A DNA stretch of 64,000 nucleotides from Halobacillus halophilus DSM 2266 (GTDB taxonomy: Bacteria; Bacillota; Bacilli; Bacillales; Halobacillaceae), in the NCBI RefSeq assembly GCF_000284515.1, contig NC_017668.1, positions 744,001-808,000 on the forward strand, read 5' to 3'. Position 1 is the first letter of the stretch; every line of letters starts with the position of its first letter. Both the position numbers and the translations under genes were made by a program. This document shows positions 3,736 to 63,545 of this stretch, in pieces. The notes beneath the pieces are model-generated. The model did not search any database and was not told where the DNA came from. It saw only the letters and a list, made by a program, of their open reading frames with translations.

Positions 3736-4310
3736 TCCTTTACAGAAAAGCTCCCTTTTCTGTAAGACTCAGTTCCGAGATATTTAGACTGAGAGGACAG
3801 TCCTTCGGGGGATGATTTCGCTTTCCGTGGGAATGCGAGGAGCCTCCTCAGGCATTCGCCTTCCGGGGTCTCCCCTGTCATTTTTATCCCACAGGAGTCT
3901 ACATCATCCCCCTCCGGACTTTGCCAAATCAGAAGCTCGAAACGGCTTTATCCTTCACCGCTTGAGAAGAAATACTACATGAGCTTTATCCTTTTATCAG
4001 GCTGAAACTATGGGATAGAGCCTGTTATATAAGCATTCCAGCCAGGTTAAGGAGAACAGAATTCTCTTTTTCCGAAGGGGCCGTTCTTCCTAATAAAGCT
4101 GGCGTGGTGGGGAAATGGCGAGACTCCCATGGGAGAAGGAACTAGGTGAGATCCCGCAGGGAGTGAAACGAGCGAGGAAGCTCACCGTTCCCCCATAGGA
4201 AAGCGAGTTATTTCCCCACCAGCCCTTCTCCAAATATCGTAACGGACCCAAATTATCTCGAAGTCAAGTCTTACAGTTACCGGCCCTATTGTTTAATAAG
4301 TCTTATTAAA
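3736..4310. repeat. MITE-like intergenic repeat, copy E2
   Basis: About 0.57 kb, non-coding. The left end carries CAGAAAAGCTCCC, GTAAGACTCAGTTCCGAGATA (about 3761-3781). The right end carries TTATCTCGAAGTCAAGTCTT, then CCGGCCCTATTGTTTAATAAG. Between them lie block A (GATTTCGCTTTCCGTGGG to CCCACAGGAGTCTACATCAT, about 3815-3915) and block B (GGTGGGGAAATGGCGAGAC to TTATTTCCCCACCAGCCC, about 4090-4227). It separates the RND remnant from the BCCT gene. Confidence 0.85.
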
Positions 4311-4363
4311 AAAATAAACTGCCTCTATTAACATAGCTAACTGGAAAATAGAACATAAAACAT

Positions 4364-4393
4364 CCCAGGTAAGCTTAGGTTTGCTTACCTGGG
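4364..4393 (-). terminator. Rho-independent terminator of the BCCT gene
   Basis: CCCAGGTAAGC and GCTTACCTGGG form an 11-bp stem around a short loop, just downstream of the BCCT stop on the minus strand, followed by GATGTTTTATG. Confidence 0.8.
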
Positions 4394-4410
4394 GGAGAAA
4401 ATGACGAGGC

Positions 4411-5934
4411 TTAAGAAGTAGCACTCATTTTTTTAGATGAAGTTTTTTTCTTTTCTGCGGCTGTTTCCTGTCGGGCCGCTTTAAAGAAGGAAGCCCCCAT
4501 CATGAGCAGAACAATAGAGAATGGGAGGGCGGCTATGATTAACATATTTTGCAGTCCCTGTGTCCCTCCAAAATAAATAATGATAGCAGCCATGCCGGAA
4601 AGCGCCAGTCCCCAGGTAATTTTAACCATTCCTGAAGGGTTAAGTGCTCCTGAAGTGGATAACATGCCTAGTACAAAGGTAGCTGAATCTGCTGATGTTA
4701 TAAAGAAAATCGCGATAACGAAAATTGTAATAAACGACATGAGTACACCTAAAGGATATTCCTGTAAAACGGCGAAAGTAGCTGTCTCCAGTGAATAATC
4801 CGATATGGTTGCTATACCATACTGTTCAAGGTTAAGCGCCGAGACGCCGAAGACAGTAAAGAAAACAAAACAGATCAGCGAAGGCACCAGCAGCACTCCT
4901 GCCATGAACTCCCGGATGGTGCGCCCGCGCGAGATTCTTGCAATGAAGATCCCGACAAACGGGGACCACGACACCCACCAGGCCCAATAAAAGATGGTCC
5001 AGTCATTAATCCAGGTACGATTTCCTTCATTGAGGGGGGCCACATTGAAACTCATGGAAACGAAATTCGTAATATAACTGCCAAGCGTATTGGTGAACAT
5101 ATTCAAAATATACTGAGTTGGTCCCACTATAAATAATAAGACTAACAAAGCTACCGCGAGAACCATGTTGATGTTACTTAAATATTTAATACCTTTACTA
5201 ATCCCGCTCCAGGCAGAGAATATAAATAAGGCAGTGGAGACCGTAAGAATAATTAATTGAAAAGTAAAGTTTGCAGGTACATTGAATAAAAAGGAAAGTC
5301 CTTGATTAATTTGAGCGGTACCAAAACCAAGCGTAGCAGCAACACCGAACACAGTAGCTACTACGGCTAATGTATCGATGGCTTTTCCCAATATTCCTTT
5401 CATACTTTTTTCACCAAGCAAAGGAATGAGGGTCGCGCTTACGAGACCAGGATACCCTTTATGGAATTTAAAATAGGCGAGCACAAGTGCTACCAATCCA
5501 TAAACAGCCCAGGCACTGACACCCCAATGAAAGAATGAGTATTGCAATGCTTCCTTTATAGCTTCATCCGAACCTACTTCAGCTTCAGGGGCATTTTTAA
5601 AGGCGTGTGCAATGGGTTCAGAAGTTGTCCAGAATACGAGTCCCATGCCCATTCCTGCACTAAAGAGCATAGCGAACCAGGTGGGTAGAGGGAACTCGGG
5701 TTTTTCAGTCTTCTTTCCTAATTTCAGGTGTCCAATTTTAGAGAAAGTTAAATAGACACAAAACAGAAAAATGACCATTACAATTAATAAATAATACCAG
5801 CCAAATCGATTAGCAATAAAGGTAGTGGTTTCGGTCGTGACCGTCTCCAAATTCTCTGGAGCAACGGAACCCCATCCTACTACCAGTGCACAGATAGCCA
5901 GTGCACTCCAAAATACAGTCGTTACGTTTTTCAT
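4411..5934 (-). CDS. opuD: BCCT-family betaine/choline-type transporter
   Basis: 507 residues, 12 predicted membrane helices, with a lysine-rich cytosolic tail (EKKKTSSKKMSATS). The family signatures are present: GMGMGLVFW in the unwound helix (the glycine-rich form seen in Na+-coupled betaine carriers rather than the carnitine exchangers), and the aromatic substrate stretch WTIFYWAWWVSWSPFVGIFIAR. It should import glycine betaine or a related osmolyte with Na+ into the cytoplasm under salt stress, fitting the halophilic setting and the proline operon at 56 kb. GAGGTG lies before the ATG. It is a single-gene unit with its own terminator. Related carriers are OpuD and the BetH proteins; the exact substrate cannot be fixed from sequence. 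Confidence 0.92.
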   Translation of the reverse strand: MKNVTTVFWSALAICALVVGWGSVAPENLETVTTETTTFIANRFGWYYLLIVMVIFLFCVYLTFSKIGHLKLGKKTEKPEFPLPTWFAMLFSAGMGMGLVFWTTSEPIAHAFKNAPEAEVGSDEAIKEALQYSFFHWGVSAWAVYGLVALVLAYFKFHKGYPGLVSATLIPLLGEKSMKGILGKAIDTLAVVATVFGVAATLGFGTAQINQGLSFLFNVPANFTFQLIILTVSTALFIFSAWSGISKGIKYLSNINMVLAVALLVLLFIVGPTQYILNMFTNTLGSYITNFVSMSFNVAPLNEGNRTWINDWTIFYWAWWVSWSPFVGIFIARISRGRTIREFMAGVLLVPSLICFVFFTVFGVSALNLEQYGIATISDYSLETATFAVLQEYPLGVLMSFITIFVIAIFFITSADSATFVLGMLSTSGALNPSGMVKITWGLALSGMAAIIIYFGGTQGLQNMLIIAALPFSIVLLMMGASFFKAARQETAAEKKKTSSKKMSATS

Positions 5935-6129
5935 ATCGTCACCTCGTATGTAGGGGTAATTGTAAATGTGTAAAACGGGCCCTGATATTATATAAGTATA
6001 TCTATCGCTTCCCTAACGACCTCCCAATCAAACCAATAATTAGTAGATTTGGACTGGTAGATGCAGGAAAAGTTTCGTGTTACATTTAGAAAAATAGCTT
6101 TTGCTCCATATTTTTAGGAGGTGGCTGAA

Positions 6130-6615
6130 ATGCTTGAGACCGTTCAAATCGTTAGTATTCAAAAATCTCATTTGCAGCACATGTACTTATGGGAGCTTGA
6201 TAAAGAGATTCAGATGAATACAGGGATTGAACACCCGAGAACATATGAACTTTTTTTAAATTCTTTTGCGAAATACTTTCGTGGAGAGAAGCCCCAATAT
6301 TTTATAAAAGCTGTGGAAGTAAATGGTGAACTTCTTGGAAAAATAGAGCTTTTCTATGATGGAGATAAAAATTATCTCGGAATTTTACTAGCTTCTCAGA
6401 GAGATCAGGGCATTGGAACCAGGGCTCTGAATCTATTTTTAATAGAAGTTAAACAGTGTAGGTATGTTGATCGGGTGTATGTGGAAGTCTATGATGATAA
6501 TGAAAGAAGCTTACATTTCTTTCAGAAGAATAAATTCGTCTATACAGGGGAATCTTCGGCTGAATGGTACAAAAATCAACAGCGGAAATTAGTGACTCTT
6601 GTGCGTGATCTTTAA
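6130..6615 (+). CDS. GNAT-family N-acetyltransferase
   Basis: 161 residues from ATG 6130; AGGAGGTG at 6116-6123 overlaps the alternative GTG at 6121, so the ATG is preferred. It has the GNAT fold order: the acetyl-CoA loop is at QRDQGIGTRALN (a Q/RxxGxG/A motif), followed by the conserved VEVYDDNERSLHFFQKNKF segment in which the substrate-side asparagine and the aromatic pair are kept. It resembles the RimJ/RimL branch that acetylates amino groups of proteins or small molecules. The substrate is not identifiable. It converges on the Gfo/Idh gene and shares a terminator with it. Confidence 0.85.
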   Translation: MLETVQIVSIQKSHLQHMYLWELDKEIQMNTGIEHPRTYELFLNSFAKYFRGEKPQYFIKAVEVNGELLGKIELFYDGDKNYLGILLASQRDQGIGTRALNLFLIEVKQCRYVDRVYVEVYDDNERSLHFFQKNKFVYTGESSAEWYKNQQRKLVTLVRDL

Positions 6616-6668
6616 AAAATCCCGCTCTGCCTCATGTACCGATTGTATGAGACAGAGCGTTTTTTATT
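6613..6668. terminator. Bidirectional terminator
   Basis: CGCTCTG/CTCAT pairs with ATGAG/CAGAGCG, with an A run on the left (6613-6619) and a T run on the right. It serves the acetyltransferase on the plus strand and the Gfo/Idh gene on the minus strand. Confidence 0.9.
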
Positions 6669-7674
6669 TCGAAGGAGTCAGTTCTTGCAAATCAACCCGT
6701 CTTTTTCTTTTTTGTGATAAAGCTGCTCCCTGGTTGATTAGAGTTAAATTCCATGCATCAGTTCTAGTGATGGAAGGGGTGGTTCTTTCTTCAATAGCTG
6801 CTGCCCATTGGTTTATAGGAAGAGGGTATCCAGGAACTTTGGCAGGCTTCGTCCATTCTTCTGTATCCAGTTTTGTGCTCTTAATTCGAATTTCTTTGTT
6901 CTCAATCATAAGCGTGCCTTCCGTTCCATATAACTCGAGCTGGAACGGGCTTTTCGAAGAAATAAAACTGGTCTCAAGAACGGCCATAGCCTGGTTGGTA
7001 TATTCAACTACTGCTACTGACTGATCATCGACACCCCGTTCTGTTAATTGCTGAAGGTGTCCAGTAACCGCGGAAGGCGTACCTAATAACCGGTTTGCTA
7101 GATAAATAGGATGGGCACCGAGGTCAATCATAGCCCCGCCTCCGCATTGAGTGGGATTGAAGAATGTATCAGGAAGCCAGCCTGAAGGGGCTGCATCAGA
7201 GGGAACGGCTCCATTGTGAGCCGCACGGCATCTTACCATCGTTAATTGACCAAGCAGTCCCTGATTCACGGCTTGCTCTGCGTAGATAAAATAGTCATCG
7301 GCCAAACGGGGGAGGGAGACCATCAGTTCAACACCTGCCGCGTCTACTGCGGAAAAAATTTGTTCACAGTCTGCTACAGAAAATGCTAATACTTTTTCTG
7401 TGAAAATATGCTTGCCATGTTTAGCAGCCGCTAAAATCAGGTTCTTGTGCTGGTTCGTAGGGGATGCAATAATTACCGCATCAATGTCTGGATCAGAAAG
7501 GAGAATTTTAAGATCCTGGACAAATGGAACTTCCAATTTCTCTGCCCACTCTTTACCTCTCGCGGGATCCTCATCCCATACGGCTGAGATTGTAATATTG
7601 GGATTATCTTGAGCCTGTGCCGCATAGTCGATAGCGTGCACATGCCACTTACTTAAAAGAGCCACTCGCAACAT
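6664..7674 (-). CDS. Gfo/Idh/MocA-family oxidoreductase
   Basis: 336 residues from the ATG at 7674, which follows AAGGAGGAAGAATT; the start six codons upstream overlaps the ribosome site. It has an N-terminal Rossmann domain (about 1-120), with the FTEKVLAFS segment equivalent to the catalytic EKP motif, and a C-terminal alpha/beta domain with GGGAMIDLGAHPIYLANRLL. Family members oxidise or reduce sugars, inositols and related compounds with NAD(P). The first glycine loop is odd: where relatives have GxGxxG this protein reads LLSKWHVHAIDYA, so cofactor binding may differ. The gene lies just upstream of nothing obviously metabolic; the next gene on the same strand is an RsbR paralogue 30 bp away, so cotranscription is possible. 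Confidence 0.88.
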   Translation of the reverse strand: MLRVALLSKWHVHAIDYAAQAQDNPNITISAVWDEDPARGKEWAEKLEVPFVQDLKILLSDPDIDAVIIASPTNQHKNLILAAAKHGKHIFTEKVLAFSVADCEQIFSAVDAAGVELMVSLPRLADDYFIYAEQAVNQGLLGQLTMVRCRAAHNGAVPSDAAPSGWLPDTFFNPTQCGGGAMIDLGAHPIYLANRLLGTPSAVTGHLQQLTERGVDDQSVAVVEYTNQAMAVLETSFISSKSPFQLELYGTEGTLMIENKEIRIKSTKLDTEEWTKPAKVPGYPLPINQWAAAIEERTTPSITRTDAWNLTLINQGAALSQKRKRRVDLQELTPSK

Positions 7675-7704
7675 AATTCTTCCTCCTTGCACTTCAAAAA
7701 TCTC

Positions 7705-8526: not shown

Positions 8527-8587
8527 ATTGTTATCCTCCCATTTGTAAATAAAAATAAGTCACTTATACGGGTGTAAAAAGGGGGAT

Positions 8588-9334: not shown

Positions 9335-9446
9335 TATCTGCTCCTCCATTTTTTGGGACACCTTAAGGAATGTAGAATAGTGTATGCCCAAGATAATGGA
9401 ATTGCGATTCGGCGGGCAGATATGCCCTCAGTTTCAAATACCCATC

Positions 9447-9902: not shown

Positions 9903-9969
9903 GAGAGCCTCCTGAACCATGTATTAATTTGTTTAGTATAGCATATGAGGTGACGACAAAGCACGGCTA

Positions 9970-9998
9970 TTGTCATATTCGGTAATCAGTGGTATAGT
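9970..9998 (+). promoter_or_regulatory. Sigma-A promoter for a candidate small RNA
   Basis: TTGTCA at 9970-9975 and TATAGT at 9993-9998 are separated by exactly 17 bases, within an intergenic region whose flanking genes are both on the minus strand. There is no plus-strand gene downstream before the terminator at 10096-10128. Confidence 0.6.
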
Positions 9999-10004
9999 AG
10001 TTAT

Positions 10005-10128
10005 GCGATGAGCTGTTTGCGTAAGACGAAGTATGAGCTTTAAAAGCTAAACGACGAATGTGGTCGTCGGTACATTCGCGGCAATATATCAGAAAAGCCT
10101 TCCCATCTTGAATGGGAAGGCTTTTTTT
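10005..10128 (+). ncRNA. Candidate small RNA of about 120 nt
   Basis: A transcript started by the promoter at 9970-9998 would end at a strong terminator (AGCCTTCCCAT/ATGGGAAGGCT plus seven T). Between them are further pairings, for example AGCTTTAAAAGCT near 10038 and CGACGAATG...CATTCG at 10052-10080. A frame starting at ATG 10008 has only 11 codons and no ribosome site, so a protein is unlikely. I do not recognise a known RNA family. The terminator also has a weaker T run on the other strand and may serve the DUF1206 gene, so the RNA remains a proposal. Confidence 0.45.
10096..10128. terminator. Terminator (candidate sRNA, and DUF1206 gene)
   Basis: A near-perfect stem of 11 bp with a short loop. 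The T run is long on the plus strand (TTTTTTT) and shorter on the minus strand (TTTTCT). Confidence 0.85.
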
Positions 10129-10134
10129 AATGTT

Positions 10135-10992: not shown

Positions 10993-11038
10993 GATCGAAC
11001 ACCTCGCTTAGTAATTTTTCTAGGGTTTCAAATAAGAG

Positions 11039-11543: not shown

Positions 11544-11548
11544 AAAAA

Positions 11549-12512: not shown

Positions 12513-12569
12513 GAGCAAATTCGAATAATTAGAGTGTTCATTTTTTATAAGAGGAGGCACTGTAAAATC

Positions 12570-13610
12570 ACCAACTTGATTTTACAGAAAAGTTCCCGAA
12601 ACTTGAAGATTTGATTTCGAGATAGTTGGGGTCCGTTGCAAACAATAGATGAGGGCGGCTACGGAAACAACTCGCTTTCCTGCGGCCCTACAAGACGTAA
12701 GGTAGATCGACGATGCCACAGGACGTGGAAACCTTAGTCGAACATCCCCCCTTGTGCTGAGCTTCCTAGAGCAAGCTCTGCGGGGTCTCGCCGATCATGT
12801 TCATACCATTCTTACACTTTTTTAGTCTTACTCGAAAATCAGAACACAAACCACAAGGAGAGCTATTCAACTCCAGCACCTAGCGGCTAGTGAGACTTCC
12901 CTCACTTCTGTACGATAAGACAACATCGAATCGCTCCGCTCTTTGTGTTTTCTTTATCTCCGCCAGCTCAGTCCAGTTCATACGCCGCTGACCAAGGTGC
13001 TTCCGCTTTTAACCTAGGAGTCTACATCGCCCCCCTCAGGCCCTATCCAGATCAGAAACTCGAAACCATTTAAGACATCAACGGGTTCAGGAGAAAAAAG
13101 CATGTGCTCATGAAGCTGTTCTTATGCTATAAAGATGTAAAATATCCTGTCATAAAAGCATTTAGGACCGATTAGGAAGGAGAGCATTCTCTCTTATAAA
13201 AGCGTCCGTTATTCTCACTAGGGCGAGGTTGGTGGGGAAATGGCGAGACTCCCATGGGAGAAGGGACTAGGTGAGATCCCGCAGGGAGTGAAACGAGCGA
13301 GGAAGCTCATGGTAAAAGGAGGATCGACTAAGGTCGCCACGTCCTGTGGCAACGTCGATCGACCCTACGTCGTGTAGGGCCATAGGAAAGTGTTCAAATG
13401 TGGAATCACCCCGAAAGACACGACCAGCATAAGCCGAGCATCAAAAGGATGGTGGTTTTTCCGTCCGTTGATGAACGGCTTATGTCTCGAGTGTCTGGGT
13501 GATGGAACAAGACGAGTTATTTCCCCACCAACCCTTATCCACCTAAGGTAACGGACCCATTTATCTCGAGATCGAGTCTTCAACTATCTGGCCCGATTGG
13601 GGAATAAGTG
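12570..13610. repeat. MITE-like composite repeat, copy E3
   Basis: About 1.0 kb, the largest non-coding element with E10. Left end: CAGAAAAGTTCCCG, GAAGATTTGATTTCGAGATA, GGGTCCGTTGC. Right end: GTAACGGACCCATTTATCTCGA, GAGTCTTCAAC, TGGCCCGATTGGGGAATAAG. The interior has block B arms, two copies of a short hairpin unit (GCCACAGGACGTGG at about 12715; GCCACGTCCTGTGGC at 13337-13351), a 230-bp module shared with E10 (about 12800-13020), and a hairpin module shared with E9 (about 13390-13510). Its nested order suggests one element inserted in another. Confidence 0.82.
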
Positions 13611-13657
13611 TCCTCTAAACAATCACCAACGTTTATTCGAGACAAAAAGGAGGAAAC

Positions 13658-20430: not shown

Positions 20431-20465
20431 ATATATAGTAATCGATCAGAAATATCGCTACTTAT

Positions 20466-20556
20466 GTTTCCTACGCTGGTATCAACCAGTTCAGGTTCTA
20501 AGGGTCAGTATCATTAAAGGATACAATCTCAACCAGCTACACTGGTCCCCCTACAT
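20466..20556 (-). promoter_or_regulatory. TPP riboswitch (THI-box)
   Basis: On the minus strand the conserved elements are in order: GTAGGGGGACC, GCTGGTTGAGATTG, ACTGACCCTTAGAACCTGA, ACTGGTTGATACCAGCGTAGG. The CUGAGA-type and ACCCUU...GAACCUGA pyrophosphate- and pyrimidine-binding parts are intact (here GTTGAGA). It controls thiY, the thiamine-binding gene, thiX, thiZ and the TatD gene by transcription termination. Confidence 0.95.
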
Positions 20557-20708
20557 TGAAACTATTCAATTTGATGAACAACGTTATAATTTTACTGTGC
20601 CATAACGAAGTAGATTTAGCAAGTACTATAATCTTATTCCTAGTAAACAGATAGGCTTTTTGTGTTAAGATAAAGGAAATCGTTATTACAGAAAGGGAGT
20701 TCCTTTTT

Positions 20709-23009: not shown

Positions 23010-23460
23010 AAGATCCAAACACTGGAATAATCGAACTCAAGATATTTGGGCCCGTTACTAAAATGGGTACGAGGGTTGGTTGGGAAATAATTCGCTTTCC
23101 TGCAGGGGAACTGGCAAGCCTCCTCGTTCGTTATCACTCCCTGTGGGGTCTCGCCTCGCTCCTTCTCCCACGGGAGTCTCATCATTTCCCAACCAGCCCA
23201 ACTGATATTTAGTGAACGATCCCTGCCGATAGAAAAAGTGGAGAACCTAAAATCGTGTTAAAGGCTTTTATAGAAACATTTATCCCCTCTGGACAGACTC
23301 GGAATTTAAAGTTGGTTACAGGTCATCCTCCTCAAATGGAGCCATATACGTAGAGAATTTCGAGCTCTCCATGATCGCAAAGAGCCGTTCCCTGGAGCCC
23401 ATTTCTCCACACAATATCTCGAAACTGAGTATTCAACTATACGGCCCTTTAGTGCAAGAA
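23010..23460. repeat. MITE-like intergenic repeat, copy E4
   Basis: Non-coding. Left end: AATCGAACTCAAGATATTTGG and CCCGTTAC at about 23028-23058. Block B lies at 23074-23200, from TTGGTTGGGAAATAATTCGC to GGGAGTCTCATCATTTCCC. The right end is AATATCTCGAAACTGAGTAT, CAACTATACGGCCCTTTAG at about 23412-23450. The middle part (23230-23400) has few of the usual modules and is partly unique. Confidence 0.75.
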
Positions 23461-26424: not shown

Positions 26425-26505
26425 AGCGAATCATCTTCCGCAGGACCTTCAAGTAAATTAATATCTCGAATCAGATTCTTCCTCGACCCGGCCCGGAAGT
26501 TCATC
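26425..26505. repeat. Degenerate end of the MITE-like family
   Basis: AAGCGAATCATCTTCCGCAGG, ACCTTCAAG, AATATCTCGAATCAGATTCTT and GACCCGGCCCGG follow the order of the right end of full copies (CCCGCAGGACCTT, ATATCTCGAAACTGAGTCTT, CCGGCCC) with many substitutions. It looks like an old solo remnant in the 340-bp gap between fabI and gdh. Confidence 0.6.
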
Positions 26506-31134: not shown

Positions 31135-31260
31135 CTCCGTCATTTTCACCCAGTCCATACGCCGCTGACCAAGGTGCTTCCGCTTTCAACCTGGGAGTCC
31201 CGCCATGTCCTACCAATCCAGTGTTTTCTCATGAACGGACCTGGAGAAGTGGAGAACTTT
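31135..31260. repeat. Remnant of the MITE-like family
   Basis: CCAGTCCATACGCCGCTGAC, CAAGGTGCTTCCGC and AACCTGGGAGTC match the module inside E3 (12970-13030) and, inverted, E10 (63000-63050). ATGAACGGACCTGGAG near the end resembles the GGTCCGTT flank. No intact terminus is visible. Confidence 0.65.
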
Positions 31261-36224: not shown

Positions 36225-36300
36225 TTTAAAAGCAGTTGACATATAAATCAATATCCCGAAATCAATTCTTACAGAATCCGGGGCTCAACTGTAAGAACAA
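36225..36300. repeat. Short remnant of the MITE-like terminus
   Basis: AATATCCCGAAATCAATTCTT, ACAGAATCCGGGGCTCAACTG follows the order of the family terminus (TATCTCGAAATCAAGTCTT ... CCGG). No interior modules remain. Confidence 0.5.
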
Positions 36301-36331
36301 CACGGTAATTTAAAAGAGCCATATTATTAAA

Positions 36332-42843: not shown

Positions 42844-43370
42844 TTTTTTGGAAACTATTTGTTGCTTTTTTTATACCTGGAATTATTGGTTATGGGGGAG
42901 GTCCTGCTTCAATCCCTTTGGTAGAAAATGAGGTTGTGGGACGATTTGGATGGATGAGTGTGACGGAATTCAGCGAAATGCTTGCTATGGCAAATGCGCT
43001 GCCAGGGCCGATTGCTACAAAAATGGCCGGTTTTATCGGCTATCAGCAGGCAGGGGTTCTGGGTGCAGTGGTCGGTGTCTTTGCCACAGTTACTCCATCG
43101 CTTATTTTAATGATTGTCCTGCTTAGCGTTCTATATAAATTTAAGGATTCGCCAAGGGTCAAACGGATGACCAATTTAATCCGCCCGGCGATTGCTGTGC
43201 TTCTTGGAATTATGGCGTACCAGTTTTTTTGGAATTCCTATGAAGCCGCAGGGTTCCTGCAAACAGTAATCCTGATCATCGCCAGTTTCTTGTTACTTGA
43301 AAAAGTAAAACTGCACCCCGCCTTTGTAATCCTTGGATCGCTCATATACGGCGCCTTGTTCTTAGGTTGA
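42840..43370 (+). CDS. Chromate transporter, half-length (second subunit)
   Basis: 176 residues, the partner of the half transporter upstream. GYGGGPASIPLVENEVVGRFGW and MANALPGPIATKMAGFIGY repeat the motifs of the first subunit, so the pair arose by duplication. About six membrane helices with the opposite predicted topology, as in other short-CHR pairs. Translation is coupled through the ATGA overlap. The substrate is chromate by family; no chromate reductase or regulator is adjacent, so another anion is possible. It resembles YwrA. Confidence 0.88.
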   Translation: MIFWKLFVAFFIPGIIGYGGGPASIPLVENEVVGRFGWMSVTEFSEMLAMANALPGPIATKMAGFIGYQQAGVLGAVVGVFATVTPSLILMIVLLSVLYKFKDSPRVKRMTNLIRPAIAVLLGIMAYQFFWNSYEAAGFLQTVILIIASFLLLEKVKLHPAFVILGSLIYGALFLG

Positions 43371-43384
43371 ACAAAGCAGATATT

Positions 43385-43800
43385 AAACATAAAGGCCGGA
43401 TTGTTGAAGACTCAGTTTCGAGATAAATTGAGTCCATTGCCTGAAATCGATGAGGGGCGGCTACGTGAGAAGAACGGACCCTACTATTGGAGAAGCTAGT
43501 GTCCTACATCAGCTTTAAATACTTCTATAGCAGGGGTTATCCCACGTGCACGCTCATTGTTATAGGTTTAACCCCACCGTAAACCATGGCGTTCCGAACA
43601 TGATATCGAGTTCCCTATTTAGCAAGGTCCGGAGGGAGACGATGCAGACTCCTGCGGGATGAACATGATCGGTGAGATCCCGCAGGGCTGTTAAGCCCGA
43701 GGAAGCTCACCTCATGCCCGCGGAAAGCGAAATCGTCCCCCGGAGGATCTTCCGCTCCACCAATTGTCTCGAAACTGAGTCTTCAAGTAATGGGAGCATA
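43385..43800. repeat. MITE-like intergenic repeat, copy E7
   Basis: Left end: AGGCCGGATTG, TTGAAGACTCAGTTTCGAGAT, TTGAGTCCATTGC (43392-43440). Right end: ATTGTCTCGAAACTGAGTCTT, CAAGTAATGGGAGC (43760-43798). Block A fills the interior: CAAGGTCCGGAGGGAGACGAT (43624), ACTCCTGCGGG, GGTGAGATCCCGCAGG, CGCGGAAAGCGAAATCGTCC. The rest of the 590-bp gap up to 43960 is AT-rich with no gene seen. Confidence 0.85.
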
Positions 43801-43960
43801 TCTTTAATGAGGAAATTTAAGGTAGTACAAGAACTCGCAGTTTTCGGACTCTCTTTAATCATCATTCCAGCAAAATCCCCCTTTGTGAAGAAGGAGTACC
43901 TTAGGAATAGAGCGAATATCCTAGTTAGGAAATAACTATTCGATTAAAGGGGAGAGAAGA

Positions 43961-44835: not shown

Positions 44836-44957
44836 CTTCTTATCCAGAGAGGCGGAGGGACTGGCCCTTTGATGCCCGGCAACCATCGAATCAATCTAAT
44901 GATTGACGAGAACGGTGCCAATTCCTGTAGGATGGTGACATCCTAAGAGATGAGAGG
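44836..44957 (+). promoter_or_regulatory. SAM-I riboswitch (S-box)
   Basis: The consensus elements are in order: CTTATCCAGAGAGG, GGAGGGACTGGCCC, TGATGCCCGGCAACC, AACGGTGCCAATTCC, TAAGAGATGAG. P1-P4 can all be formed. It is followed by the terminator at 44977-45010 and msrA. High SAM should favour termination. S-boxes normally control methionine and SAM synthesis or uptake genes. Confidence 0.96.
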
Positions 44958-49903: not shown

Positions 49904-49969
49904 ACTCTCTCTAAAGTGTCCAATCTTTACTGGACCTTACGAATAGGATCTGTTAAATCGCAGTGTTGA

Positions 49970-50545
49970 TCTTACAGAAAAGCTCCCGTTACTTGAAGAC
50001 TCAGTTTCGAGATAAATGGGTCCTTTACGTTAGATGGACAAGGGCTGGTGGGGAAATAACTCGCTTTCCTATGGGGGAACGGTGAGCTTCCTCGCTCGTT
50101 TCACTCTCTGCGGGATCTCACCTAGTCCCTTCTCCCATGGGAGTCTCATCATTTCCCCACCACCCCCACTCTATTAAGAGGAACGGACCCTTCTTTAGTA
50201 GTGTAGGCGTTGAAGTTGATCCTTTCTAAATCCAGTAGTACCAGGCTTTTTCTAACATTACCTAGAGAAAACGGGGACTCATGGCATGATTTCTATATTT
50301 CCAATCCAAGTGATTTTTGCCAATGTTTCGAGTCTCTCATTTCAGCAAGGTCCGAAGGGGGACGATGAAGACTCCTGTGGGATAAACATGATCGGTGAGA
50401 CCCCGGAAGTCGAAGACTGAGGAGGCTCAGCACATGCCCACGGAAAGCGGAATCGTCCCCCGCAGGACCTTACCTACAAACCGATATCTCGAAACTGAGT
50501 CTTCCACAATCCGGCCCTATTGCGTAATAAACCTTTTCTGAAAAA
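49970..50545. repeat. MITE-like intergenic repeat, copy E8 (clearest copy)
   Basis: Left end: ACAGAAAAGCTCCCGTTACT, TGAAGACTCAGTTTCGAGATA, GGGTCC (49975-50033). Block B: GGTGGGGAAATAACTCGCTT to CCCATGGGAGTCTCATCATT (50050-50160). Block A: CAAGGTCCGAAGGGGGACGA to CGGAATCGTCCCCCGCAGGA (50345-50468). Right end: GATATCTCGAAACTGAGTCTT, CCACAATCCGGCCCTATTG, CGTAATAAACC (50482-50530). Non-coding; it fills the 760-bp gap between the polyglutamate hydrolase and the next gene. Confidence 0.88.
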
Positions 50546-50617
50546 AATAAACAACTGCGTTTAACAGAGCTTACGAATAACAATGATTGAATCGTTCGGA
50601 CAAGGTTAAATAACTTC

Positions 50618-54471: not shown

Positions 54472-54690
54472 AAAAAACCTCGTCTCCTGAAAGAGACGAG
54501 GTATAACTCGCGGTACCACTCTTATAGCTGTATAGCCACTCGGTATTGTTAACGGGGGTTGCCCCGGCCTATCCCTACTTGATTCAGGCAGGCTTCTCAA
54601 AAGTCCGGTTCACTTACGGATATAGGTTCAGGCTCTCACCGTCCCTGAATCGCTTGCCCCTCACACATAAGCTACTCTCTTTTTTTTTGG
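54472..54690 (-). promoter_or_regulatory. T-box leader of argS
   Basis: On the minus strand stem I carries AGGGACGGTGAGAGCCTGA, and the antiterminator has the T-box core AGAGTGGTACCGCGAG, followed by the terminator CCTCGTCTCTTTCAGG, AGACGAGGTTTTTTT. Uncharged tRNA should base-pair with the GGTACC-region bulge and stabilise the antiterminator. An arginine specifier is expected; both CGT and CGG triplets are present in the 3' half of stem I, and I cannot decide between them. Confidence 0.93.
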
Positions 54691-54802
54691 AATTTAATTA
54701 ATTTTAGAAAAGTATAGCGGATGGAGCTTGGATTTGCAAGATGATTATGGAATAACAATGGATGACGTGGGAAAAATATCATGGAAATGAGGTGAGAGTG
54801 TT

Positions 54803-55831: not shown

Positions 55832-55842
55832 GCAGAAAATAA

Positions 55843-55878: not shown

Positions 55879-55979
55879 GTGCGATTTTATTGAAACACTC
55901 TTAGGACGGAAGAGGTTGGAGCTGTCTTTTGAAAAAGCTCCACTAAACGTCGTAGATAAAATCTGATACAAGATACTCC

Positions 55980-56300
55980 ACTAAAGAGCCGGATAATGTA
56001 AGACTAAGTTTCGAGATAATTCGGGTCCGTTACGATATGTGGAGAAGGGCTGGTGGGGAAATAACTCGTCTTGTTCCATCACCCAGACACTCGAGTCATA
56101 AGCCGCTCATCAACGGATGGAAAAACCGCCATCCTTTTGGTGAGCGGCTTATGCTGGTCGTGTCTATCGGGGTGATTCCACATTTGGCCCTACACGACCC
56201 TGCGTCGTGCAGGGCCGGAAAGCGAAATCGTCCCCGGAGGACCTTCCGCTCAACAAATATCTCGAAATCAAGTCTTAAACAAACGGGAACTTTTCTGGAT
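55980..56300. repeat. MITE-like intergenic repeat, copy E9
   Basis: About 0.32 kb. Left end: AGAGCCGGATAATG, TAAGACTAAGTTTCGAGATAA, GGGTCCGTTACG (55985-56036). Right end: CAAATATCTCGAAATCAAGTC, TTAAACAAACGGGAAC (56253-56291). The interior holds a hairpin module with CATAAGCCGCTCA/TGAGCGGCTTATG arms (56096-56153), shared with E3, and the GGCCCTACACGAC...GTGCAGGGCC unit (56188-56213). An open frame across it is shared with E3 but probably not coding. Confidence 0.82.
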
Positions 56301-56540
56301 TAAGCAACGTGAGGAAAAGGTTTTGGAAAATTGCTATAACCCCTACCACGATAAGTTTTTTGAATATTTACTTAATTCGTATTATTGGGTTTTATATGGG
56401 AATTCGTAAAAAATCAGTTCTCAAATACAGCCGTGAGAAGTCATTTTTTGCGATGAGAAGCGATGAGGATGAAATATCTCGCTTTGAAACCGTTTACACT
56501 AACTAATTGGCTCATATAGACATCATTTGGTAAATACCCC

Positions 56541-56568
56541 TTGATTCAATTTTTGCCAGTGTTATGAT
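56541..56568 (+). promoter_or_regulatory. Promoter of the proHJA operon
   Basis: TTGATT (56541-56546) and TATGAT (56563-56568) are 16 bases apart. Transcription should start near 56575, which supports the proH start at 56624 over an ATG at 56564. Salt control is expected from the operon's role but no specific site is visible. Confidence 0.6.
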
Positions 56569-56623
56569 GAAAAACGTCATAAAGAAAGCGAACAAAAAAT
56601 ACGAACGGGAGAGATTAACTCAA

Positions 56624-57466
56624 ATGATCAAACAAACGATTGCTTTTTTAGGTGCAGGCTCTATGGCTGAAGCTATGATTTCAGGTATGGTTGAATCCGG
56701 GAACATTTCAGCAGATCAGATCATTGTAACCAATCGAAGTAATCAAGATCGATTAAATGAGATTAATGATAAATATGGAGTACGTACAGTATTAAAAGAT
56801 GATTTAGACTTTTCACAAGTGGATCAACTTATTCTGGCTATGAAGCCAAAAGATATTGATGCCGTACTTGAAGACTTACGTTATAAATTAAATCCGAATC
56901 AAGTACTTGTATCCGTGCTCGCTGGCATTTCTACTTCATATATGGAAGACCGTCTCAATGATGGTCAGGAAGTTATTCGAGTGATGCCGAACACATCCAG
57001 TACGCTTCGCGAATCAGCAACCGCAATGTGCCCTGGCCACTATACAGACATGGAAAATGTTCTAGTGTCTAAGGCTCTCCTACAGTCTATTGGAGAAGTT
57101 TTCATTATTCCAGAGGATAAAATGGATGTCTTTACCGGAATTGCCGGAAGCGGTCCTGCTTATTTCTACTATTTAATGGAGCATATTGAGGAAACTGGCC
57201 GTGCAGAGGGTATGGATTCCAAAACACTCAGGGAAATTGGAGCACAAACCCTGCTCGGTGCAGCAAAAATGATGCTGGAGGGCGAAGAAAGCCCAGCGGA
57301 ACTTCGTAAAAAAGTTACCTCTCCAAACGGTACGACAGCGGCTGGTCTTGATGCACTGGAAGAAAGTGGCGGCGGAGACGCGATCTCAGCAGCTATTAAA
57401 GGTGCAGCCGGACGCTCGAAAGAACTAAGTAAAGAAATAGAAGGCCTGTTAGTAGGCAGTAAGTAA
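56624..57466 (+). CDS. proH: Pyrroline-5-carboxylate reductase
   Basis: 280 residues from ATG 56624, with GGGAGAG upstream. AFLGAGSMAEAMISGM is the NADPH-binding loop, VIRVMPNTSSTLRESATAM lies in the middle domain and GIAGSGPAYFYYLMEHIEE near residue 170 is the ProC signature for substrate and dimer contacts. It makes proline from pyrroline-5-carboxylate in the last step of the pathway. In Halobacillus the three-gene order proH-proJ-proA serves salt-induced proline accumulation, separate from housekeeping synthesis; the order here is identical. The last codons lie in the first copy of a tandem repeat. Confidence 0.95.
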   Translation: MIKQTIAFLGAGSMAEAMISGMVESGNISADQIIVTNRSNQDRLNEINDKYGVRTVLKDDLDFSQVDQLILAMKPKDIDAVLEDLRYKLNPNQVLVSVLAGISTSYMEDRLNDGQEVIRVMPNTSSTLRESATAMCPGHYTDMENVLVSKALLQSIGEVFIIPEDKMDVFTGIAGSGPAYFYYLMEHIEETGRAEGMDSKTLREIGAQTLLGAAKMMLEGEESPAELRKKVTSPNGTTAAGLDALEESGGGDAISAAIKGAAGRSKELSKEIEGLLVGSK

Positions 57467-57539
57467 ATAGCAGTAAGTAAATAGCAGTAAGTAAATAGCA
57501 GTAAGTAAATAGCAGTAAGTAAATAGCAGTAAATAAATA
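57456..57539. repeat. Six tandem copies of a 14-bp unit (VNTR-like)
   Basis: Unit GCAGTAAGTAAATA at 57456, 57470, 57484, 57498, 57512 and 57526; the last copy has one substitution (GCAGTAAATAAATA). The first copy includes the last two codons and stop of proH. The unit has stops in several frames. The gap to proJ is thus mostly repeat. Confidence 0.97.
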
Positions 57540-57569
57540 ACTCGATGCAATACGTTAAATAGGAGTGAT

Positions 57570-58700: not shown

Positions 58701-58720
58701 AATAATCAAGGAGGTCTTTG

Positions 58721-59983: not shown

Positions 59984-60003
59984 AATAAAGTATGACATGA
60001 GAA

Positions 60004-60031
60004 GGGACTCCTAATAAGGGGTTCCTTTTTT
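60004..60031 (+). terminator. Terminator of the proHJA operon
   Basis: GGGACTCC pairs with GGGGTTCC through some G-U pairs, followed by TTTTTTAT. Confidence 0.72.
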
Positions 60032-60118
60032 ATATTGGGAATGGGATGGAAGGACTATTGATAATCACTTTATGTATTTCGGTAGATTTTCTTTTCATAT
60101 ATACACAAATGGTTTATC

Positions 60119-60149
60119 GAAAAAAACCCTCTATTAAGAAGAGGGTTTA
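60119..60149 (-). terminator. Terminator overlapping the RsbR-like coding end
   Basis: On the minus strand AAACCCTCTTC pairs with AGAGGGTTT, followed by a long T run. The last five codons and the stop (60134-60136) lie in the stem and loop. Confidence 0.88.
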
Positions 60150-60991
60150 GAAGTATATATAGGATCACGATCAATAGCTTGAGCAAGAGTAGGGGTTATC
60201 GATATTTGGCCAAAGTCGATGCCCAGCTGGACAGCCGTATGAGCAATTTCAGGACGGATGCCTGAAAGGGTGGTAGAGACTCCGATCAGCTGCAGCCCGC
60301 TGATCAATTGAAAGATTTGGTGAGCTACCATTGTATCGACTAAATACACACCTGACAGATCAATAAAAAGCTGGTCAATTCCTTTATCGGTGCACCCTTT
60401 TAAGGTGTTATCCATAATGGCACTGGCCCGTGAAGAATCAATATCTCCAACAAGGGGAAGCAAGGCTCGTCCATTTGAAAGATCAATAAGGGGGGAGCTA
60501 AGTTCATTAATCGTTTTCTGCTGTTTGTCTATCCGTGTATCAAGTTGATTGGATTTTTCTTCAACTACTCGCATCGTTACGATATCAAATGCTTTAATGA
60601 GTACCTCTTTCCATCGATCGATCTGCTCCTGAGTATAAGCATGATCGGATACGGCAATAAACTCTTTGACAAAATACAAATATTGATCACGAACACGTAA
60701 GAATTCTCTCATAATAAGATAGGTAGGCGTACTCAGATGTTCCGGATCACTGGCTATTTTCATAACCCAATCGTCAAACTCTTCAAGAAACTGATCCATT
60801 GGTTGAATAAAGACCTTACATAAGTGCTGATGAAATTCAAAGTTCTGCCCTTTTAACGTTTCAATGACTTTAGGATCTTTGGAGGCATAAACCCCTCTAG
60901 GATCGCTTTTATCCAGGGACTCGTACCATTGCTCAGTTAAATCCTCGGCTTTATGCAACAAAAAATCATGCAATTCTCTATTTCTTTGCAT
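60134..60991 (-). CDS. RsbR-family stressosome protein
   Basis: 285 residues. The N-terminal 145 residues form the non-haem globin-like sensor domain of RsbR proteins (LLHKAEDLTEQWYESLD; PTYLIMREFLRVRDQYLYF). The STAS domain is at about 160-275: ALLPLVGDIDSSRAS, then LFIDLSGVYLVDTMVAHQ with a serine (S213) in the DLSG position and S243 in LSGIRPEIA, the kind of sites phosphorylated by RsbT. It is closer to RsbRA-type proteins than the paralogue at 8 kb. It modulates sigma-B activation in the stressosome. The stop lies inside its terminator. No rsbST genes are near. Confidence 0.9.
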   Translation of the reverse strand: MQRNRELHDFLLHKAEDLTEQWYESLDKSDPRGVYASKDPKVIETLKGQNFEFHQHLCKVFIQPMDQFLEEFDDWVMKIASDPEHLSTPTYLIMREFLRVRDQYLYFVKEFIAVSDHAYTQEQIDRWKEVLIKAFDIVTMRVVEEKSNQLDTRIDKQQKTINELSSPLIDLSNGRALLPLVGDIDSSRASAIMDNTLKGCTDKGIDQLFIDLSGVYLVDTMVAHQIFQLISGLQLIGVSTTLSGIRPEIAHTAVQLGIDFGQISITPTLAQAIDRDPIYTSKPSS

Positions 60992-61191
60992 TCTATTACT
61001 CCTCTCATAACGCTAAGCTGTCATCATTTCCGTGTGTGGAAAAACAAGGAAACCTTATGGAGCCATTATAATACATTTCAAAAGTGAATGGAGAATTATC
61101 GGTAGATTTAATTATAATTCTTATAAAAGAAAGAGGGTTTGTAAAAGATTTGTCGAATATAACATTAATTTAATATGTGGAGGCGAAAAGC

Positions 61192-61656
61192 ATGACAATG
61201 AGAGAGGTATTTTTAGATCAACTAGCCGCCATTTATGACGAAAACAACTGGTTTGTCTGCTATGAAATGTCTATTCAGGATTTAGAAGATTACCAGGTTC
61301 ACGAAAGACCGGATGACGAACAAACCCACTCTATTGCAGAACTCCTCAATCATCTCTACTTTTACAACTACCGTTATTTATGCCGCTTCAGGGGGGAGGA
61401 AATAGATGAACTTCCCAGATACTACGATACGTTCCAGGATCATGGCACTCTGTCATGGAGACAGGTAGCTGCCAGCAACAGCGTCGTTTTATCCGAATTT
61501 CGTAAAGAAATTAAGCGATGCAGTGACGAAAAGCTTGAGAAATGGGCTACTACCCTGTCACACCTCTTTATTCATAATGCCTATCATATCGGACAGGTCG
61601 TTCATATCCGCAAACAATTTGGCACCTGGAGTCTCTCTCCCGTAGTTAGGGGTTAA
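61192..61656 (+). CDS. DinB-family protein
   Basis: 154 residues from ATG 61192, which follows GGAGG; a start five codons earlier lacks a ribosome site. A four-helix DinB fold with the metal histidines in SIAELLNHLYFYNYRYL near residue 45 and FIHNAYHIGQVVHIRKQ near 130. It may be a bacillithiol-dependent transferase or an unrelated DinB-like protein. Cytosolic, monocistronic. It differs clearly from the other DinB gene at 40 kb. Confidence 0.82.
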   Translation: MTMREVFLDQLAAIYDENNWFVCYEMSIQDLEDYQVHERPDDEQTHSIAELLNHLYFYNYRYLCRFRGEEIDELPRYYDTFQDHGTLSWRQVAASNSVVLSEFRKEIKRCSDEKLEKWATTLSHLFIHNAYHIGQVVHIRKQFGTWSLSPVVRG

Positions 61657-61726
61657 AAACCTTCGCAAAAAAAGTCTATTGTTTTTTTAGAAACCAGGTA
61701 ATCTGGTTGTCCATTTAAAAGTTAAA

Positions 61727-61758
61727 AATAAACCAGGGATCCTTCCCTGGCTTATTCC
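61727..61758 (-). terminator. Terminator of the spore coat gene
   Basis: On the minus strand AGCCAGGGA pairs with TCCCTGGTTT around a short loop, ending in a T-rich stretch. Confidence 0.75.
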
Positions 61759-61760
61759 TA

Positions 61761-62285
61761 TTAACCTTCGCATACATGCATAGGAGCAAAGTCAGCTTCT
61801 GTTACAGGGACTGGGGTAGTTGTATCAAGACATGTGATTCCGCAGATGCAGTTAAGGTCAAACGTCATACAGATTCCTGTAGATTTGAATTCTGTAACCC
61901 CGTTTACCAAGTCACATACATCTCTTTTACTGCAACGGCTGTTTAAGGTCATGCTATTGTTGTCTGGTTTAAGCAGCTCAAGTTTGATACAGTTTTTCTT
62001 GTCGTCTGTAAATTTAATAGCTTTGAAGATGGGAGTCTCTACACAGTAGAACGTGTCATTAATCTTTTTAACACCGCTGGCAAAGAAAGGTTTGCAATCT
62101 TCGCAGTAAAGAATGAAAGGAATGGTTGTATCCCCGTTCCCGCCTGTAGCAGGACCTACTAGATCACGGATAGACCGTTCACAGCTGACATCACATTCGT
62201 CAGCCATAGCCACCTCTGCTTGAGCATCTAGAATTTTCTTAAGAATGTCGCGTACGCAGTTCCCTTTGTTTGAATGATATGACAT
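61761..62285 (-). CDS. cotZ: Spore coat protein of the CotY/CotZ (ExsY) family
   Basis: 174 residues from the ATG at 62285, behind AAAGGAGAG. Cysteine-rich: CVRDILKKILDAQAEV near residue 9 and CEDCKPFFASGV near 62 are conserved in CotY, CotZ and ExsY, which self-assemble into disulfide-linked lattices in the outer crust or exosporium. A further seven or so cysteines are spread over the C-terminal half. The mother-cell sigma-K is expected to drive it: a CATAGAATG stretch 40 bases upstream is a loose match to its -10. Only one family member is visible in the window, so CotY and CotZ cannot be distinguished. Confidence 0.93.
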   Translation of the reverse strand: MSYHSNKGNCVRDILKKILDAQAEVAMADECDVSCERSIRDLVGPATGGNGDTTIPFILYCEDCKPFFASGVKKINDTFYCVETPIFKAIKFTDDKKNCIKLELLKPDNNSMTLNSRCSKRDVCDLVNGVTEFKSTGICMTFDLNCICGITCLDTTTPVPVTEADFAPMHVCEG

Positions 62286-62513
62286 TAAAATATCTCTCCT
62301 TTTCATATTGATCATTCCTTATCATTCTATGTAAGCTAAAGATTAGCGCCTGTACATCTGTCTATTTTCTATAAGATCAATAAAAATTTTAAGTTTCTAT
62401 AATTTATAGGGCATCTACCAATACAAAAGGAAAAAGACAACATATAATAGGGTATCTATAATTAATGGTTATAGATTCATGGTTCACCACACTATGAGAT
62501 TTTCCCTACGTTT

Positions 62514-62544
62514 AGACGCAAGCCGTACACTTGCGTCTTTTTTT
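62514..62544 (+). terminator. Orphan terminator on the plus strand
   Basis: AGACGCAAG pairs with CTTGCGTCT, followed by TTTTTTT. No plus-strand gene lies upstream between the end of DinB (61656) and here, so it may end a short untranslated transcript beginning after about 62400. Confidence 0.75.
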
Positions 62545-62589
62545 GTGTTCCTGGAAAGATATATAAGCATTGCATGGAAACTTAATAGC

Positions 62590-63545
62590 TTATTAAACAA
62601 AAGGGCCGGATTGTGGAAGACTCAGTTTCGAGATATTTGGGGCCGTTACGTTAAATGTAAGTGGGGGCTGGTGGGGGGGAAATGACTCGCTTTCCTATGG
62701 GGGAACGCTGAGCTTCCTCGCTCGTTTCACTCCCTGCGGGATCTCACCTAGTCCCTTCTCCCATGGGAGTCTCCCCATTTCCCCACCAGCCCAACTATAT
62801 GAGTAGAAACGGACCTATCGGAAAGAGAAGTTCTTGGCTTCCATCACCTGGCTAAAATGCTTATATATCAGGCAATTATGCAAAATCATCAACTTTAAAA
62901 CGCCTATCATCGCATCCTGTTATTTCTCGGAAAGATGGTGCTTTTTTGAGTGGTTTCGAGGCTGTCATTTGGCCAGGTCCGGAGGGGAACGAGGAGACTC
63001 CTAAGTTAAAAGCGGAAGCACCTTGGTCAGCGGCATATGGACTGGACGTTCAATTGTGAAGGTGCCTTGTTCAGCCTCGACCAGCTTAAGAACGACCATG
63101 AAAGGAAGTGCTTTTCTTCCTATCATGGTTGGACTTAAGACCTCGAGAGGCTAGGCACCGAAACTAGCCTGGAATTGGCGGAGATAAAGAAAACACGAAG
63201 AGCGGAGCGATTCGATGTTGCCTTATCGTACAGAAGTGAGGGAAGTCTCACTAGACGCTAGGTGCTGGAGCTGGAGAGCTCTCCTTGTGGTTTTATCTTC
63301 TGATTTTCGAGTAAGACTAAAAAAAGTGTAAGAACGGGATGCACATGACAGGTGAGATCCTGCAGGCTTCAGCCCGAGGAAGCTCAGCGCAGATGAGGTT
63401 CGACTAAGAACGCCACGTCGTGTGGCAACGTCGAACGACCCTGCGACGTGCAGGGCCGGAAAGCGAAATCGTCCCCCGAAGGACCTTCCTCATAACCAAT
63501 ATCTCGAAGTCAAGTCTTCCAGTATCGGGAGCTTTACTGTTAGGT
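62590..63545. repeat. MITE-like composite repeat, copy E10
   Basis: About 0.95 kb. Left end: TTATTAAACAAAAGGGCCGG, TTGTGGAAGACTCAGTTTCG, GGGGCCGTTACG (62589-62650). Right end: CAATATCTCGAAGTCAAGTC, CCAGTATCGGGAGC (63498-63533). Interior: block B (62665-62793), the start of block A (TTTGGCCAGGTCCGGAGGGG, 62970), then the 330-bp module shared with E3 in opposite orientation (63000-63340), the GCCACGTCGTGTGGC hairpin unit (63411-63425) and the end of block A (CGAAATCGTCCCCCGAAGGA). It seems to be block A with another module inserted in it. Confidence 0.85.

Follow-up and report, generated by a model that had tools for sequence, protein, structure and literature searches.

Intergenic gaps in a 64,000-nucleotide stretch of the Halobacillus halophilus DSM 2266 genome (assembly GCF_000284515.1, contig NC_017668.1, positions 744,001 to 808,000 of the forward strand; hereafter the window) contain a family of repeated elements. 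It is probable that these elements are miniature inverted-repeat transposable elements (MITEs) of the IS1595 type, and that the cassette sites they carry are also used by a gene-cassette system with a XerA-like recombinase. Less firmly, we lean towards a wider reading, in which the Bacillaceae would have a separate integron-like system with a XerA-type recombinase, a two-armed insertion site, and arrays dozens of cassettes long, and in which IS1595 elements would carry sites and cassettes and multiply cassettes lacking an open reading frame (ORF) into MITEs. Both readings are drawn from comparisons of DNA and protein sequences.

The repeat family and its ends

The repeat family is real and large. 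Its common motif, T (GAAGACTCAGTTTCGAGATA; T' when inverted), has 11 matches in the window at three or fewer mismatches and none in 100 shuffles. At this threshold it is present at nine of the 11 places where a reading of the window made without database searches (hereafter the sequence-only reading) had put elements or remnants; the place at 31135 has no site and proved to be an interior fragment. That reading had proposed a whole-genome search, and a 17-nt core of T indeed has 362 matches in 4.17 Mb with two mismatches allowed, compared with one for a reversed-pattern control. Among 61 genomes (H. halophilus included), 44 have at least one match to the core. High counts, up to 264 outside H. 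halophilus, are confined to the same family, several genomes of which have 0-8 matches, and the counts of 0-2 in other families equal the control level.

The whole cassette site was described by a 44-nt model, which consists of a left arm, a 6-bp spacer, a right arm (N7 followed by GAAG), and the remainder of T. The MITE spacer reads GCTCCC at A ends and GGGCCG at B ends, A and B denoting the two kinds of outer part. When trained on other loci, the model found 17 sites in the window, each above 20 bits, and none above 20 bits in five dinucleotide-preserving shuffles of the window. They fall into seven pairs, a lone site in the copy truncated by the window edge, and singles at 26462 and 36252. 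MITE ends score on this model like the array sites described below.

The sequence-only reading had taken T and the adjoining AAAAGCTCCCG or AATAGGGCCGG parts for the shared termini. They are not the ends: in an alignment of T copies from sampled stretches (62 ends of A type and 57 of B type, including some array sites or chance matches), both ends of a unit finish in GGCTCTGTTAAA-n6-TGTTGATTTT, within a terminal inverted repeat (TIR) of about 28 bp that sits some 49-65 bp outside T. At an A end, 49 bp separate T from the outer limit of the unit; at a B end, about 65 bp do. The H. halophilus genome (G000, 4.17 Mb) was sampled for this work, and the MITE statistics rest on the window together with 30 loci of 3 kb and further fetched stretches. 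With three mismatches allowed, the TIR pattern has 51 + 55 matches in the genome, compared with 0 for a reversed control. The target-site duplications (TSDs) that had been suggested as something to look for are present and 8 bp long. Nine of 52 T..T' units, a set that includes a few array sites that are not MITEs, retain both TIRs at four or fewer weighted mismatches, and in all nine the flanking 8-mers agree at 6-8 positions (8/8 in four units, 7/8 in two, and 6/8 in three). In the other 43 units, where a TIR is degenerate or misplaced, the flanking 8-mers agree at six or more positions in four. The shortest TIR pair in the fetched loci spans 192 bp; an "empty" MITE, predicted at about 100 bp, was not among them.

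Within the window, two clearly readable TIRs occur only at 49946-50571, and one each at E1, E2, E3, and the copy at 36229; a scan of the window found no TIR above shuffled background at E4, E5, E7, and E8. No ORF of at least 100 amino acids lies inside any window copy, in agreement with the earlier statement that the elements have no transposase gene. The window copies and associated features are as follows, with strand (+ or -) where one was assigned.

1-228: E1, cut by the window start; T' 160-179, right TIR 201-228 (5 mismatches), site 48.4 bits
G000:C1:743615-744228: E1 as a whole copy, 614 bp; TSD AAAGCATA, 8/8
3713-4338: E2; A-site T 3763-3782, B-site T' 4254-4273; flanking 8-mers 6/8
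4311-4338: right TIR of E2, 5 mismatches
12556-13643: E3; A-site T 12605-12624, B-site T' 13562-13581; flanking 8-mers 6/8
12556-12583: left TIR of E3, 4 mismatches; the right TIR is poor
12687-12753 (-): Rfam Bacillaceae-1 (RF01690) hairpin in E3, 50.5 bits
13312-13378 (+): Rfam Bacillaceae-1 (RF01690) hairpin in E3, 70.1 bits
22975-23470: E4, outer limits approximate; A-side T 23025-23044, weak (20.6 bits), B-site T' 23415-23434
26462-26481 (-): single degenerate site, a remnant, 24.9 bits
31131-31199: element-interior fragment, 86% to 12954-13022
36229-36322: short copy (about 94 bp) with one site and one TIR; T' 36252-36271, TIR 36293-36320 (3 mismatches)
43370-43815: E5, limits approximate; B-side T 43406-43425, A-side T' 43765-43784
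49946-50571: E6, the best preserved; A-site T 49995-50014, B-site T' 50485-50504; TSD TACGAATA on both sides
49946-49973 and 50544-50571: TIRs of E6
55960-56310: E7, limits approximate; B-side T 55999-56018, A-side T' 56258-56277
62580-63560: E8, limits approximate; B-side T 62616-62635, A-side T' 63500-63519
63388-63454 (+): Rfam Bacillaceae-1 (RF01690) hairpin in E8, 58.1 bits

A search of plasmid records with one MITE end gave matches to its TIR portion in Geobacillus, Parageobacillus, Aneurinibacillus, Pontibacillus, and others; a few further records matched its T portion. In Pontibacillus sp. ALD_SL1, the same TIRs frame an IS1595-family transposase (NF033547, E 2.5e-62; the family is also PF12762), with TAATATAA on both sides. 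This transposase has a match in 18 of 44 family genomes. Three of the homologous copies are intact, two in G031 (89-90%) and one in G029 (83%), and the others are pieces. Because the elements share TIRs with an IS1595 transposase element of relatives and are flanked by 8-bp TSDs, they appear to be IS1595-type MITEs. The transposase gene with matching termini that the sequence-only reading had proposed to search for therefore exists in relatives, and its suggestion of mobilization in trans gains support from the TIRs, the TSDs, and the autonomous element. One of the G031 copies (L155) retains both TIRs and includes a passenger ORF and one outer site; a 60-bp two-armed or double site, T'-C20-T, lies between its passenger and its transposase. 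As read by eye, L137 diverges from L155 at the GCCCC core of the outer site.

Other transposases were rejected as partners. ISL3 (PF01610) has seven matches in three of 22 genomes, and no pair of MITE TIRs framed the seven fetched loci, some of which have single TIR-like matches. IS6 (PF13610) has none above cut-off in 22 genomes and weak matches in four. An IS4-type gene in a 2-kb T..T' unit at C1:3139004 belongs to an insertion into the element: here (L059:1370-2925; G000:C1:3139004-3141080) a MITE copy served as the target, and the insertion is flanked by a direct repeat of about 11-12 bp (by eye). Separately, a Geobacillus plasmid (L130) has one TIR near pieces of an IS1182-type transposase, and a second TIR was not found there. 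On Aneurinibacillus plasmid pAT1 (L133:2501-3287), a TIR pair frames an annotated GNAT gene, with no annotated transposase and no T site, and is perhaps a gene-carrying non-autonomous element. Viral contigs gave two exact TIR matches, with no T at either locus.

The sequence-only reading had noted that the two different outer parts can occur in the same copy. They are found together, and the statement was too weak: an automatic rule assigned one A end and one B end to 49 of 54 T..T' units, and by visual inspection two of the five exceptions seem to be B ends that the rule misread. Combined with the inner modules P and Q, the 54 units comprise 23 scored as A-P/B-Q, 19 as A-Q/B-P, and 12 as mixed or unclear, and interiors are present in both orientations across the family. 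The Q module exists in at least two versions, of the GAGCGGAAGG and GGAGAAAGGGGCTCC types, for example in E4 of the window and its ortholog in G019. The interiors also contain the Bacillaceae-1 hairpin (RF01690), which passes the covariance-model gathering score at three places in the window and accounts for 10 of 11 and five of six Rfam matches in two further sets of sampled H. halophilus stretches. Of 18 matches in sampled stretches, 17 lie between T and T' and one between two same-direction sites.

Orthologous places were compared in two related genomes, G001 and G019, for the window copies other than E1. The A end of E3 has P in the window and in G019 and Q in G001, and its B end has P in the window and in G001. 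The A end of E4 has P in the window and Q in G019, and its B end has Q in both. E5 is oriented alike in all three genomes, with longer interiors in G001 and G019. None of the copies compared shows a clean inversion between orthologs. Together with the family-wide comparison, these differences indicate that interiors change at T, by whole orientation across the family and by replacement at a single end between species. Recombination, which the sequence-only reading had offered as a means of spread, would thus apply to the interiors (both orientations; end modules that differ at E3 and E4) and not to the unit as a whole. The question of whether orthologous gaps are empty or share old copies received a mixed answer. 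E6 (49946-50571) is absent from G001, and the copy at 36229-36322, which had been listed as a remnant at 36225, is absent from both G001 and G019. In G001, E8 is represented by its B end with its T and E2 by its B-side site only, counterparts of the copies at 3713, 12556, 23000, and 43370 are present with a different interior or a different degree of completeness, and E7 (55980) aligns throughout.

Over 101 classified ends, N7 shares 0.97 bits with the outer part A or B (shuffled maximum 0.51) and 0.28 bits with the inner module P or Q (shuffled mean 0.30). Inversion of the interior by integrase exchange at the spacer is therefore not supported. Because the change occurs at T, inside the arm, and N7 stays with the outer part, homologous recombination is likelier than an integrase reaction. 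The independence of interior orientation from the outer ends would also be expected if two unrelated transposons were nested, that is, if a T-ended element had jumped in either orientation into an IS1595 MITE. We regard this as highly improbable and as the least credible account considered, because T is found at the limits of gene cassettes and of the two-armed site too, the bases adjoining T on the A and B sides are different sets and not a duplication, and 49 of 54 units pair an A with a B end.

Cassette arrays bounded by the same site

The view of T as part of an element terminus was incomplete, since T is also part of the cassette site. At C1:3654300-3662200 of the H. halophilus genome, T sites run mostly in one direction, with about one per small gene or gene pair, and the array ends at a T'-C20-T site beside an IS1595 remnant. 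Beside this end lie an ORF with a metalloprotease-like motif (by eye) and a phage-integrase-like ORF (L049:2478-4234); the tyrosine-recombinase match at L049 is a 23% phage-type integrase and not the XerA-like recombinase. When 5.7 kb of this array was compared with 44 genomes, we found many short site matches and longer ones that coincide with cassettes or parts of them, such as 91% to G002 over query positions 1779-2841 and 89% to G034, of another genus, over 4549-5375. The array had no match in a phage collection. It matched 15 plasmid records, 13 of them over one PadR / permease-prefix gene pair.

A model built from eight sites found 283 sites above 17 bits in 22 iterated loci, compared with 0 after mononucleotide shuffling. 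Here and below, site models were iterated on the same loci that they describe, and array loci were picked for having matches, so that array frequencies hold for the chosen loci and not genome-wide. The longest array sampled has 43 same-direction sites in 40 kb (G008, L212 and L213). We delimited 276 site-to-site cassettes at 42 loci of Halobacillus and relatives, with a median length of 701 bp. The longest ORF (at least 50 amino acids) has its 3' end toward the site in 236 of the 276, faces the opposite way in 31, and is lacking in nine. Among 105 cassette proteins scanned (ORFs of at least 85 amino acids from 12 loci), acetyltransferases were commonest in Pfam, with 10 matches to Acetyltransf_1, and one protein matched the AbiJ defence model.

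If cassettes are exchanged at the site, similarity between homologous cassettes in different surroundings should end there. We found 39 homologous cassette pairs, 36 of them between different loci, some of which are neighboring stretches of one array. Identity was read from gap-free windows (24 left-end and 19 right-end windows of the 39 pairs) and is comparative. It is 0.41 outside the left spacer (baseline 0.32) and 0.37 behind the next T (baseline 0.31). For the left arm (baseline 0.47), identity rises from 0.59 at the left end of the cassette to 0.95 at its right end, and for N7 (baseline 0.50) it falls from 0.88 to 0.61. Similarity thus runs from spacer to next spacer and hardly further, which fits what site-specific exchange would give. 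The spacer, being conserved at all sites (baseline 0.79), does not reveal at which base exchange would occur.

An inverted T' at 15/20 or better accompanies 35 of 323 sites (shuffled maximum 14), and among inverted T' matches at 12/20 or better, 19 lie at -40 and are two-armed sites. The mean fold z is -1.4 over 120 sites, and strong single-strand folding as a rule for all sites is not supported by the fold scores. A minority of cassette sites (L203, L251, L198, and others) have a second inverted T' about 80 bp upstream, forming a long imperfect palindrome that resembles an integron attC. Some sites (e.g. L048:18286-18344) are preceded by a G+C-rich hairpin with T-runs, terminator-like by eye.

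These arrays could alternatively be explained by plain IS1595 MITEs and passengers, with T as a subterminal binding or hairpin sequence, arrays arising from nested insertions with transposase loss, interiors shuffled in a RecA-dependent manner, and no integron-like recombination. The presence of T inside some IS1595 elements, the array that ends beside an IS1595 remnant, and the exchange of MITE interiors at T, which homologous recombination between repeats predicts, are all in keeping with such a history. We nonetheless judge it unlikely. Exchanged cassettes are bounded by the 6-bp spacer with N7 on one side only, their ORFs are polarized relative to the site, intact IS1595 elements without T exist, and the recombinase described next stands beside a two-armed site where no such IS1595 gene is near. 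We also reason that nested insertions should leave TIRs between genes.

A XerA-like tyrosine recombinase and the adjoining two-armed site

A 280-aa tyrosine recombinase adjoins a double site in G002, and homologs of 85-98% lie beside double sites in G008, in G066 (weak site), in Sediminibacillus terrae, and in H. halophilus itself, where the gene is at C1:669136-669975, the double site at about 670080-670139, and an array behind it. In total, a recombinase of at least 85% adjoins a two-armed site at five of six loci, H. halophilus included. Within 2.5 kb of 33 distinct double sites, we found the recombinase at nine and an IS1595 transposase or piece at seven; three of the nine are second copies of the same place, and the double-site tallies include places fetched twice (L206/L270, L249/L267, and L254/L269). 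R138, K162, H229, R232, H255, and Y264 are invariant in five aligned recombinase sequences. The other H. halophilus tyrosine recombinases among those listed (three of seven matches) are 34% and 28% identical to the G002 protein.

More distant relatives, of 64-68%, occur in Neobacillus mesonae (three loci), Bacillus sp. EB01, B. sp. ISL-18, B. timonensis, and Alkalihalobacterium chitinilyticum. Repeats at these loci keep the core GCACCC-GTTAGTT-tAAG, and in five of the seven loci one repeat lies directly behind the gene. An iterated Neobacillus-type model, still expanding at its final round (32 to 60 matches), found 60 repeats above 12 bits and none in shuffled sequence. In the 38 cassettes of this type, the ORF faces the site in 28, faces away in nine, and is lacking in one. 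Still more distant matches (45% or less, L281-L344) had no sites in a scan with the Halobacillus-type model only.

It might be thought that annotation tools have overlooked a true integron of the known kind, with IntI, attI, and attC. An integrase with a double site and an array, a site at the 3' end of the ORF, arms (AACTAAC / GTTAGTT) near the integron core consensus, and the second inverted T' at a minority of sites would all be expected of one. The protein itself makes this very unlikely. It barely passes the XerA model NF040815 (221.7 bits, cut-off 220), falls far below the IntI model TIGR02249 (97.5 bits, cut-off 265), and fails the XerC and XerD models. The IntI structure 2a3v aligns over about 60 C-terminal residues only, compared with most of the length for Xer structures, so that the IntI-specific extra domain is not seen.

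Proposed mechanism and relation to known systems

We favor a XerA-like cassette system whose sites are shared with IS1595-type MITEs. The TIRs, the TSDs, the common site, the limits of the cassettes, the direction of their ORFs, and the proximity of recombinase and double site are read directly from the sequences; which enzyme would act at each step, and whether it is active at present, we infer from them. Judging by the TIRs and TSDs, an IS1595 transposase would have moved a TIR-bounded unit, with one recombination site behind each TIR, and made the 8-bp duplications. Cassettes of about 0.7 kb would form long, largely unidirectional arrays by insertion at T'-C20-T, the presumed analog of attI, and be exchanged spacer to spacer, most likely by the XerA-like recombinase. 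Some IS1595 elements with a double site behind the transposase (L155, L137) could collect and spread cassettes. The window elements would be the extreme case, in which TIRs and site halves surround an ORF-less interior of palindromic modules, including the Bacillaceae-1 hairpin. Homologous recombination among copies of T is the likelier means by which their interiors would later have been turned or replaced there.

Several observations weigh against this proposal. Concerning the recombinase, no site was found at its 97% homolog in Pontibacillus litoralis, at the 52-54% homologs (G021, G002:C20), or at a 62% Sporosarcina fragment, and 17 of 33 distinct two-armed 60-mers have neither the recombinase nor an IS1595 transposase within 2.5 kb. 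A neighboring cassette is shared in four of 24 left and one of 19 right windows, an indication that the blocks common to some arrays extend beyond one cassette. The N7 of MITEs follows the outer part and not the interior, unlike in spacer-level cassette exchange, and E3 and E4 are not clean inversions between species, as only one end changed module. TIRs are degenerate in the majority of MITE copies, which may have ceased to move long ago, and the IS1595 genes of H. halophilus are fragments only. Finally, neither the intact G029 element nor the Pontibacillus element has a site despite its TIRs, and the site is therefore not a general part of IS1595.

The window also contains the following features.

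10005-10123 (+): BsrF-like RNA
20451-20562 (-): thiamine pyrophosphate (TPP) riboswitch
44837-44956 (+): S-adenosylmethionine (SAM) riboswitch
54489-54697 (-): T-box leader
57442-57553: 14-mer GCAGTAAGTAAATA in tandem copies

If the proposal is true, the system would offer a family of soil and marine bacteria a means of shuffling accessory genes, and gene-cassette capture would have arisen separately in Gram-positive bacteria. It would then also become possible to test, outside IntI, how integron-type recombination originated, and Bacillaceae intergenic palindromes of one class, an Rfam "sRNA" family among them, would be accounted for as modules belonging to MITEs that carry the site. With current tools, complete integrons are very seldom found in Firmicutes: the part of PMC9024848 consulted gives one complete integron (Limnochorda pilosa) and few clusters of attC sites lacking integrases (CALINs). 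Firmicutes are named among the phyla with integrons in an excerpt of PMC8618304, and an excerpt of PMC2426708 gives no integron among 103 complete Firmicutes genomes. Bacillus stem-loop families have been described (PMC2267715, in excerpt). Among the top-ranked matches listed from the open-access literature, to which the search was confined with subscription papers and preprints outside it, no title or abstract start describes such a system.

Integrons, superintegrons, and CALINs, as portrayed in an excerpt of PMC8618304, resemble the present system in that a site lies behind a tyrosine recombinase gene, arrays are long, most cassettes hold a single ORF with the site at its 3' end, some hold none, and arrays without an integrase occur. 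A recombinase adjoining a site and array, ORFs with a 3' site, and apparent exchange of units with crossover in the site can likewise be read here. The additional domain by which IntI is defined (PMC9668308, in excerpt) was not found by the TIGR02249 score or the structure alignments. The system differs from integrons in that its recombinase is XerA-like, without an IntI signature, in Bacillaceae, and in that its sites are also carried by some IS1595 elements and MITEs. Bacillaceae-1 is a row in a table rated as certainly an RNA (PMC2864571, in excerpt), whereas here it appears, on sequence grounds, as a repeat module of a mobile element.

The IS1595 elements share with their family the transposase (PF12762, NF033547), the 8-bp target duplication, and a passenger ORF, and differ in that some copies have a cassette-type site behind the transposase and others do not. 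As in other bacterial MITEs, the window elements have no gene, a TIR common to an autonomous IS, TSDs, an intergenic location, and a high copy number; they differ in that the interior is bounded by recombination-site sequence and occurs in both orientations. The dif site of Xer systems has an 11-6-11 geometry with a 6-bp spacer. The cassette site appears to have a comparable 11-6-11 core with a 6-bp spacer, and it differs from Xer/dif modules in that its recombinase is its own and is not one of the other tyrosine recombinases listed for the genome (34% and 28% identical to the G002 protein).

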